Shown: piece by piece, positions 13,665-15,844 of the stretch
Layout: each line of letters starts with the position of its first letter
Position numbering within the stretch: the stretch's first letter is position 1
NCBI GenBank assembly: GCA_026400435.1
Contig: JAPLOZ010000015.1
Location: 1-64,000, forward strand
Length of the DNA stretch: 64,000 nt
Reading direction: 5' to 3'
Origin: Hyphomicrobiales bacterium
Lineage (GTDB): Bacteria; Pseudomonadota; Alphaproteobacteria; Rhizobiales; Rhizobiaceae
Translations under genes and position numbers: made by a program
Notes under the pieces: generated by a model
Database searches by the model: none
What the model saw: the letters and a program-made list of their open reading frames with translations, nothing else
Told to the model about the DNA's origin: nothing

Positions 13665-14780
<1,116 letters not shown>

Positions 14781-14843: not shown

Positions 14844-14984
14844 CTAGGTAATGCCGCCGCCCTCGTCGTTGCCGTCCTCGTTGCCATCCTGCGGAGATGG
14901 CGTGAAATTGGACGGAACGGACTGAGCCGTAACCACCGACAGCATGGCGCGTTTTTCCAGCCGCGGCTTCTCGTATCGCGTCAT
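14844..14984 (-). CDS. putative RiPP precursor peptide with lasso-type leader motif
   Basis: A 46-codon reading frame, ATG at 14984 to TAG at 14844, in the 356-base gap between ald and the glycosyltransferase gene. The N-terminus contains YEKPRLEKR and LSVVTA. Tyr4, Pro7, Leu9 and Thr19 fit the YxxPxLxxxGxxxxxT leader motif that lasso-peptide RRE domains recognise, with exact spacing; only the Gly position is changed (Ala13). After Thr19-Ala20 comes a 26-residue candidate core, Ser/Pro-rich then Gly/Asn/acidic (GNEDGNDEGGGIT at 34-46). No acidic residue sits at core positions 7-9, so a canonical lasso ring is not predicted. The ribosome-binding site is weak (GGTGGGAAA lies far upstream). No maturation or export gene is in the window, making it an orphan. 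Short orphan proteins of this look are, from memory, common in Mesorhizobium. Confidence 0.6.
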   Translation of the reverse strand: MTRYEKPRLEKRAMLSVVTAQSVPSNFTPSPQDGNEDGNDEGGGIT

Positions 14985-15136: not shown

Positions 15137-15844
15137 ATGCCCTCAGACATGCCGATCCCCCCGCTCGTCCACCAGACCTGGAAGACCGCAAGGACGCCGC
15201 TGCGCTGGCGCCATCTGGTCCAGACCGTGAAGCAGCATCATCCCGGCTGGACGTATCGTCTCTGGTCCGACCAGGAGATGGACGCGCATGTGCGGGCAAG
15301 CCACCCTGCCCTGCATCCCGTTTACGCGGCCTTCGAGAAGAACGTCATGCGCGCCGATGTGTTTCGCTACGTCGTCATGCACGATCTGGGAGGGCTGTAC
15401 TGCGATCTCGACTACGAGTTCCTCCGACCCTATCCCTACGGCGACGCTGAACTGGTGCTTATGGAGGAATTTTCCCCACAGGCCGGCGATAGCGACCTGC
15501 AGATCGCCAACTATGTCTTCGCCTCGGCCACCGGGCATCTGTTCTGGAAAGATGTACTCGACGATCTGGTCCGCAACCCGCCGGTAGTCACCACGGCCGG
15601 CGATGTCACTGGCGCGACCGGACCAGGCCTTCTTTCACGCATCTTCCTTGCCGGCGCGGAGCGCTACCCGGACGTGGTGGTGGCCCCCAAGCAGGCTTTC
15701 AGCCCTGTCCGAATGCGCGGAAGGAACGAAAGCACCAGCCTGATCGGGTCTGGCGCCTATGGCGTCCACCACGCGTGGGGCAGTTGGAAGGAGCGCACTG
15801 GCGCCCACTACATCCGCAAGGCCGCCCGTCTTCTGGACCGGTAG
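15137..15844 (+). CDS. GT32-type glycosyltransferase
   Basis: A 235-residue enzyme with the DxD-containing fold of family 32 (Och1/capsular sugar transferase-like). IPPLVHQTWKT (7-17) begins the domain, ADVFRYVVMHDLGG (73-86) precedes the metal/nucleotide-sugar motif YCDLD (88-92; Asp90, Asp92), and a C-terminal VHHAWGSW block closes it. Start candidates are ATGs at 15137 and 15149; the frame continues upstream to 15011 without coding character. It probably adds a sugar to a surface polysaccharide or lipid. It stands alone: no polysaccharide cluster is adjacent. It ends 7 bases before the convergent OmpA-like gene. Confidence 0.85.
   Translation: MPSDMPIPPLVHQTWKTARTPLRWRHLVQTVKQHHPGWTYRLWSDQEMDAHVRASHPALHPVYAAFEKNVMRADVFRYVVMHDLGGLYCDLDYEFLRPYPYGDAELVLMEEFSPQAGDSDLQIANYVFASATGHLFWKDVLDDLVRNPPVVTTAGDVTGATGPGLLSRIFLAGAERYPDVVVAPKQAFSPVRMRGRNESTSLIGSGAYGVHHAWGSWKERTGAHYIRKAARLLDR

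Follow-up and report, generated by a model that had tools for sequence, protein, structure and literature searches.

The stretch of DNA analysed here (the window) comprises 64,000 nucleotides from a Hyphomicrobiales bacterium and carries, on its minus strand, a short open reading frame between two plus-strand genes. The features of this locus are as follows.

14844..14984, minus strand: precursor peptide gene, 46 amino acids plus stop, ATG start, MTRYEKPRLEKRAMLSVVTAQSVPSNFTPSPQDGNEDGNDEGGGIT
14928..14984, minus strand: leader from the leader alignment, codons 1–19 if cut after Thr19, a cut predicted by analogy with LPP (PMC13381572)
14958..14975, minus strand: YEKPRL, by sequence a [Y/W]xxPx[L..] RRE-binding motif, with Tyr4 and Pro7 invariant in a 46-row alignment
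14847..14927, minus strand: core, codons 20–46, AQSVPSNFTPSPQDGNEDGNDEGGGIT, whose third and sixth residues are Ser if the cut follows Thr19
13665..14780, plus strand: ald (alanine dehydrogenase), an unrelated neighbour named from reading, not from a family search
15137..15844, plus strand: GT32-type glycosyltransferase (PF04488), a divergent neighbour without a shown link to the peptide

The initial annotation, made from the sequence alone, had proposed this 46-codon frame together with the leader residues Tyr4, Pro7, Leu9, Ala13 and Thr19; the frame runs from ATG to stop, and all five residues stand at the positions given. Its description of the frame as hidden opposite ald and the GT32 gene is loose, in that the frame lies between both genes and overlaps neither. 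The precursor and GT32 genes are divergent and separated by 152 bases. The putative cut after Thr19 is modelled on LPP, and lasso leaders are cut one residue further on. Gene calls around the locus come from a home-made codon model, and the names of neighbours without a family match are our own reading. NCBIfam and Pfam models gave no match to the window peptide. The ribosome site of the window copy is weak by eye, and we found no consensus promoter (sought as a sigma-70 pattern only) or terminator at this copy.

Four leader positions in register had been considered suggestive, but the bare motif is weak evidence: random (Markov-1) windows of 64 kb contain Y..P.L.{9}T 0.24 times on average, and 0.09 times with G or A in place, based on 100 random windows. 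A leader profile from which the window row and its nearest relative were removed scores the frame at 27.7 bits (E of 1.1e-7 among 1,314 segments), compared with 4.9 bits for the next-best segment in the window and a maximum of 13.7 bits in 20 random windows, in a test that is not independent, its rows having come from searches seeded with the window peptide. A first search with the peptide alone matched congener G001 (E of 6.8e-7, 56% identity). DNA similarity to the G001 relative extends from one base before the ATG through codon 22, with none in the flanks, and over these 22 codons the codon-substitution check that had been suggested gives pN of 0.18 and pS of 0.36 (6 synonymous and 9 nonsynonymous differences, a small sample). 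A chance open frame without coding function, which the expected frequency of the bare motif and the occurrence of a short ORF within high-GC DNA would allow, is extremely improbable against the profile score, a congener match that begins at the ATG, and the presence of the hub described below in 18/18 genomes that carry the leader.

The precursor family is conserved and its locus is not. The ald gene is kept in all three congeners (G001, G002, and G003) at 92–94% identity, the genes on both sides of it are syntenic in all three, and a whole-genome leader-profile search placed a leader beside ald in none of them (0/3). In G002, the interval from ald to the syntenic GT32 gene is taken up by a 403-aa gene call. 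Taken literally, the conserved frame that the initial annotation would require at this locus is absent beside ald in 3/3 congeners; the leader is conserved in trans instead. Because it is absent at the syntenic ald locus of the congeners, the window copy either arrived in this lineage alone or disappeared from the other congeners, although these absences are soft: completeness is 87.6% for the window's genome and falls short for some others as well.

The family leader has the consensus (M)KKxYxKPxLxKRxxLxxVTA and precedes hypervariable, mostly tiny cores with a median of 12 residues. From fetched stretches, at 17 bits or more, we collected 115 precursors from 18 related genomes; these are 27–107 aa long (median 33) and start with ATG (99), GTG (8), or TTG (7), with one copy for which no start was found. 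The window's genome encodes 12 precursors at 10 loci, and the gene, formerly called an orphan, has 11 sisters elsewhere as well as an RRE, B2 peptidase, and kinase on contig C111 of the same genome. Tyr4 and Pro7 are invariant across a 46-row alignment, whose rows we chose among the family matches; among all 115 copies, Tyr is missing at the motif place in two (L112 and L129), and L110 and L121 also deviate. The Gly/Ala position 13 that had been read as part of the motif is no family feature, being occupied by E, A, G, S, D, and others. In G002, 10 small genes in tandem, which first appeared as weak matches in the peptide-alone search, encode MKKxYxKPxLxKREKLSxVTA leaders with differing short ends, and this array adjoins PqqD-B2-HprK.

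When 297 genomes of the bacterial family were searched with a first leader profile (17 rows), 39 matched at E<=0.1, composed of 18 at E<=0.003 and 21 at 0.004–0.1. We treated the latter as chance because approximately 30 are expected at 0.1 per genome; the E<=0.003 line was set after the scores were seen, and the next genomes are G331 (0.0041) and G253 (0.0093). A second leader profile, searched in 25 chosen genomes, matched the same 18 at E<=0.01. These 18 leader genomes span 10 genera and hold up to 20 precursors each. Two thirds of the precursors lie away from the hub: 38/115 share a fetched stretch with hub genes and 77/115 do not, and 11 leader loci have hub genes in the same fetched stretch.

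Several members of the family depart from this pattern. Ten tandem precursors of G001 (L097:6970-8745) combine the leader KSxxLLQSVTAQ with cores that are short and rich in S/N/Q; no hub genes were detected on their contig. In G001 (L039:5797-6111; PF13884, 30.9 bits) and G002 (L109:4393-4713; similar to the former by BLAST), the family leader stands before a Peptidase_S74 (endosialidase chaperone) type domain, and in these fusions it may tag a folded domain. A leader-like frame in a Chloroflexota MAG (KKTYQTPTLTKHQRLQKVT, L161:7297, 26 bits) lies beside weak PqqD and kinase matches, hinting at leader relatives outside Proteobacteria.

The hub is composed of an RRE (PqqD), a lasso-type B2 peptidase, an HprK-like kinase, and usually an NTP transferase. 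A genome search for RRE, transglutaminase-like and asparagine-synthetase-like genes, as the initial annotation had advised, yields the first two and no cyclase over the cut-off. The single Transglut_core3 protein over the cut-off in the window's genome is encoded on contig C111, away from the window locus; there, a PqqD/RRE gene (51.6 bits vs the Pfam cut-off of 23.4) precedes the B2 gene (NF033537, 57.7 bits vs a cut-off of 33), and an HprK-like kinase gene follows it. The Pfam match of this kinase is below the cut-off (16.4 of 33.3), and we named it from weak HprK-related matches together with conserved residues. H136, K159, D176, and D177 are invariant in 11/11 kinases, as are C69 and H106 in 12/12 B2 sequences. 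Among solved structures, the RRE profile is closest to the lasso RREs TfuB1 and TbiB1, and B2 gave no match; anti-phage models gave no match to four hub proteins.

Across 12 B2 loci, we identified B2 in 12, PqqD in 11, the kinase in 11, an NTP transferase (PF14907 type) in 10, an AMP-ligase family member in six, GNAT in five, ACP in five, and a formyltransferase in three; ABC ATPases are near seven of the 12 hubs. PqqD, B2, and the kinase occur together in 26 of 32 loci examined together, a set in which L156 duplicates the L092 region, L158–L161 are partial or distant, L096 has B2 only, and L108, from G001, lacks B2. AMP-ligase, GNAT, and ACP co-occur in 9/32 loci and never with the formyltransferase. 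The hub of the window's genome is of the formyltransferase type and has no neighbouring NTP transferase, with three PF14907 matches elsewhere in that genome, away from the hub. In G001 the hub is split, with PqqD and the kinase on contig C13 and B2 on C46. The hub stretches (32 loci, ~8 kb on each side) yielded no asparagine synthase; as a control, the same query does recover the true lasso cyclases that other loci contain (E 1e-22 or better). One MsbA-like protein, from L095, had no match besides itself across the 32 hub-type loci (E<=1e-30). On C111 (L032:9700-18998), the hub borders what by eye is an apparent polysaccharide locus with a sugar-nucleotide dehydrogenase, an epimerase, and glycosyltransferases.

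Leader and hub co-occur across genomes. B2 over the Pfam cut-off is present in 18/18 leader genomes vs 6/279 others, and a hub kinase profile at E<=1e-80 matches 19 genomes, which are all 18 leader genomes and G265 (1/279 others), a weaker match in G113 (6e-17) not being counted. The corresponding Fisher values (4.5e-24 for B2 and 6.4e-28 for the kinase) ignore the kinship of the genomes, and the kinase profile was built from hubs, mostly hubs beside leaders. With the leader line at E<=0.01, G331 and G253 join without B2 or kinase, giving 18/20. Leader, B2, and kinase are all absent from G003, a member of the window's genus, and G265 has a hub with no leader in 18 kb around it or genome-wide at E<=0.01. 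When named genomes, which were not selected by leader, were scanned for the kinase, at least 16 loci emerged, including those of Mesorhizobium loti DSM 2626, M. amorphae, M. metallidurans, Kaistia defluvii, and Hoeflea poritis. Leaders were found in eight of the 10 genomes searched from these loci, 2 to 12 in each (12 in M. loti DSM 2626), with at least two of the eight repeating the first set (coordinates as G310 and G318). The other two of the 10, a Pelobacter and a Desulfuromonadaceae MAG, had no leaders.

These data support, at the level of sequence, the initial annotation's view that this is a precursor of RiPP type, with a leader like those of lasso peptides that discrete RREs bind: the peptide has what appears to be a YxxPxL...T leader of the B1-RRE type, with a predicted RRE on C111. 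Its expectation that a standard lasso ring is unlikely also holds, as the window peptide has no Asp or Glu at core positions 7–9, counted from Ala20 or Gln21, and no lasso cyclase (NF033535) over the cut-off was found in the window's genome (87.6% complete). Lasso cyclases over the curated cut-off are absent in 14/18 leader genomes. In the other four, a cyclase (775–790 bits) is part of a separate cluster with B2 and its own precursor, which carries the canonical YETPSLTVHGSIETIT leader (YETPSLTVHG...T); as an internal control, the leader profile is silent on the lasso-cluster precursor, with nothing above 8 bits. These canonical clusters (L163, L164, L165, and L166 in G257, G196, G310, and G115; precursor MEQNVE(R/K)HEYETPSLTVHGSIETITQ...) lie on the same contig as the cyclase-free hub, ~9 to 27 kb off, and the four genomes belong to one genus that includes a named Mesorhizobium (G341, with coordinates identical to G310). 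In G257 the lasso cyclase is ~9 kb from the hub, just beyond the hub stretch examined (~25 kb in the others), so the hub and lasso cluster of that genome are neighbours.

A sister precursor in the window's genome lies directly before an asparagine synthase gene on the same strand (contig C84, L033:5830-7818), the only asparagine synthase beside a precursor among the precursor loci compared. That the window gene encodes a true lasso precursor closed by a cyclase in trans, such as this C84 protein, would agree with that arrangement and with the lasso-type leader, as would the one of ten family members tested that passes NF033521 lasso_leader_L3 (the G205 member, 21.1 vs a cut-off of 19), a model that the window peptide does not pass. 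We nevertheless regard it as very unlikely. The C84 synthase scores 164 as a protein and 137 in the genome search against a lasso cyclase cut-off of 525, whereas the real lasso clusters of four leader genomes reach 775–790; those four cyclases adjoin B2 and a precursor with the canonical leader, and the remaining 14/18 leader genomes have none over the cut-off. Acids occupy core positions 7–9 in 18 or 19 of 112 distinct cores, depending on register, and are missing from the window core, and the family's median core has 12 residues. A lasso cyclase in trans was rejected, the window's genome yielding sub-threshold scores only.

The cores have a distinctive composition close to their start. S is found at position 5 or 6 after the leader T in 60/112 distinct cores (2,000 shuffles: mean 28.7, maximum 43) and S or T at positions 5–6 in 82/112 (shuffles: mean 45.5, maximum 62), with neither in 30/112; SG is found in the cores of 41/115 precursors (shuffles: mean 15.4, maximum 27). 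These features were chosen after inspection, and related cores were counted separately. The window core reads AQSVPSN after Thr19.

It is likely, in our judgement, that the window gene belongs to a set of about a dozen precursors serving a linear RiPP system, which works in trans and ties no lasso. By analogy with LPP, the product is probably linear and Ser-phosphorylated. The discrete RRE (PqqD) encoded on C111 would bind the YxKPxL leader, the adjacent B2-type cysteine peptidase would cut behind the conserved VT(A), and the adjacent HprK-like kinase would phosphorylate a Ser near the core start. The NTP transferase of most hubs could modify the peptide further, as could the AMP-ligase/ACP/GNAT trio or the formyltransferase of some hubs. 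We propose a linear phosphorylated RiPP cut by B2 because of the S/T pattern of the cores, the conserved catalytic residues, and the LPP precedent; leader binding, cutting, phosphorylation, the order of these steps, and any biological role are what we infer from the sequences.

The initial annotation suggested that the peptide may be a RiPP of an unassigned class, which it need not be, as it resembles the linear phosphorylated LPP RiPPs. LPP are linear polyphosphorylated peptides of Bacillota (Popov et al. 2026, PMC13381572), and that report describes an RRE, an HprK-like kinase, and an NTP transferase without a cyclase, a cut after T-1, and a core, AQSNWK, phosphorylated on S3; it calls LPP restricted to Bacillota. 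The system proposed here shares with LPP a discrete RRE, an HprK-like kinase, an NTP transferase in most hubs (though not beside the hub of the window's genome), the lack of a cyclase in the hub, and a YxxPx leader with Thr at the cut, which is predicted here. Ser is near the core start in both (T is followed by AQSNWK in LPP and by AQSVPS in the window), the hub of the window's genome borders polysaccharide genes (by eye) as in LPP, and a lasso cluster on the contig of the hub, here in four genomes of one genus, echoes the co-localisation of LPP and paeninodin in Bacilli. In contrast to LPP, which has an SpI-like (archaeal-type) signal peptidase, an MsbA exporter, a VLxHQxIxFETxxS leader, and an LppA core of 45 residues, our system has a B2 cysteine peptidase, no recurrent exporter seen in the hubs, a KRxxLxxVTA leader, and cores with a median of 12 residues. 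It also differs in the number of precursors (up to 20 per genome), in that two thirds of the precursors lie apart from the hub, and in its occurrence in alphaproteobacteria. We file it as working like LPP and not as a member because the defining SpI peptidase (TIGR02228) was not found over the cut-off in any of the 18 leader genomes (0/18), nine of which have sub-cut-off matches (best 33.5 of 51.85 bits).

The phosphorylated/glycosylated lasso peptides paeninodin and pseudomycoidin provide a second comparison. Lasso kinases (PMC9266682) have a reported His-Lys-Asp-Asp set, and these pathways share with ours B2, an HprK-like kinase with this set, an NTP transferase, and an RRE. Unlike in paeninodin and pseudomycoidin, no lasso cyclase was found in our hubs, and the cores are mostly short or without the ring acid; the phosphorylated residue is a C-terminal Ser in those peptides (PMC9266682) and would be near the core start here. 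Prochlorosins and ProcM differ in having an unrelated Nif11 leader and lanthipeptide chemistry (PMC10783134).

The system bears on a surplus noted with RRE-Finder. In the passages we draw on (PMC7470986), almost 8,000 proteins are best matched by the discrete lasso RRE model, only ~4,000 of those co-occur with a leader peptidase and a lasso cyclase, and the remaining lasso-RRE matches are called possible false positives. An RRE with B2 in a cyclase-free, multi-precursor pathway is one concrete answer to this surplus in rhizobia and their relatives, and gene-cluster mining would miss precursors that often lie outside the cluster. The idea of a linear phosphorylated RiPP would also be extended beyond Bacillota, with a different peptidase. 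More tentatively, and at less than even odds, we suggest that this is a distinct alphaproteobacterial class of linear RiPPs in which one RRE/B2/HprK hub serves, in trans, as many as 20 mini-precursors per genome, most of them unlinked, each yielding a different short, phosphorylated peptide. If so, the peptides would be acylated or formylated in some lineages and might form a set of peptide signals, the pathway would either have arisen from a lasso pathway by loss of the cyclase or be ancestral to one, never having had a cyclase, and the tag may also release small proteins, given the two Peptidase_S74-type fusions. We found no description of the system in alphaproteobacteria in the open-licence PMC literature, a corpus largely without subscription papers and hence weak evidence of novelty.

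The scattering of the precursors raises two alternatives. In the first, the precursor and the divergent GT32 gene form a dedicated pair, with the glycosyltransferase decorating the core; the pair is 152 bases apart, some other scattered copies lie beside GT8, methyltransferase, DUF6065, and amine oxidase genes, and another is beside a sulfotransferase-like protein below Pfam's cut-off. We find this highly improbable given that no leader lies beside either the syntenic GT32 gene in G002 or a distant homologue in G001 and that few neighbours recur across the scattered loci. In the second, the scattered copies, including that of the window, are relics that were once mobile or duplicated and have lost expression or processing, for which the empty slot in 3/3 congeners, the weak ribosome site (by eye), and the mostly unrelated neighbours of scattered copies could be cited. 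This too is unlikely, on several grounds: the leader Tyr and Pro are nearly invariant and the frames open (copies without an open frame would escape the search), and pN is below pS in the leader relative to G001, at few sites. Moreover, a leader is present in one of seven Mesorhizobium hub loci and missing from the flanks of the other six, in genomes that hold 6 to 12 leaders where searched. We therefore take scattering to be the normal state in Mesorhizobium.

A more general idea, that each precursor has its own modifying gene, found no support when the first and second neighbours were clustered, and was rejected; GT32, GT8, methyltransferase, sulfotransferase, and asparagine synthase were considered as tailoring candidates. 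Neighbour recurrences at scattered loci are mostly orthologous loci within one genus. DUF6065 is shared by precursor loci of two genomes from a single genus. Between genera, two precursors have an amine oxidase as a neighbour, and the few other shared neighbours have no evident role (ABC ATPases, an exonuclease-like protein, and a TerC-like protein, by eye). The DUF6065 loci (L085:4856-5891 and L037:6282-8434) have KRxVLPxVTA-subtype precursors shortly before the DUF6065-type gene, with a sulfotransferase-like gene in between in the second. At L081:4163-5907 and L134:4379-5998, from two genera, the precursors adjoin an amine-oxidase type flavoprotein. All three scattered precursors of G173 (L116, L117, and L118) lie 111–252 bases from paralogous proteins that by eye are outer-membrane-like.
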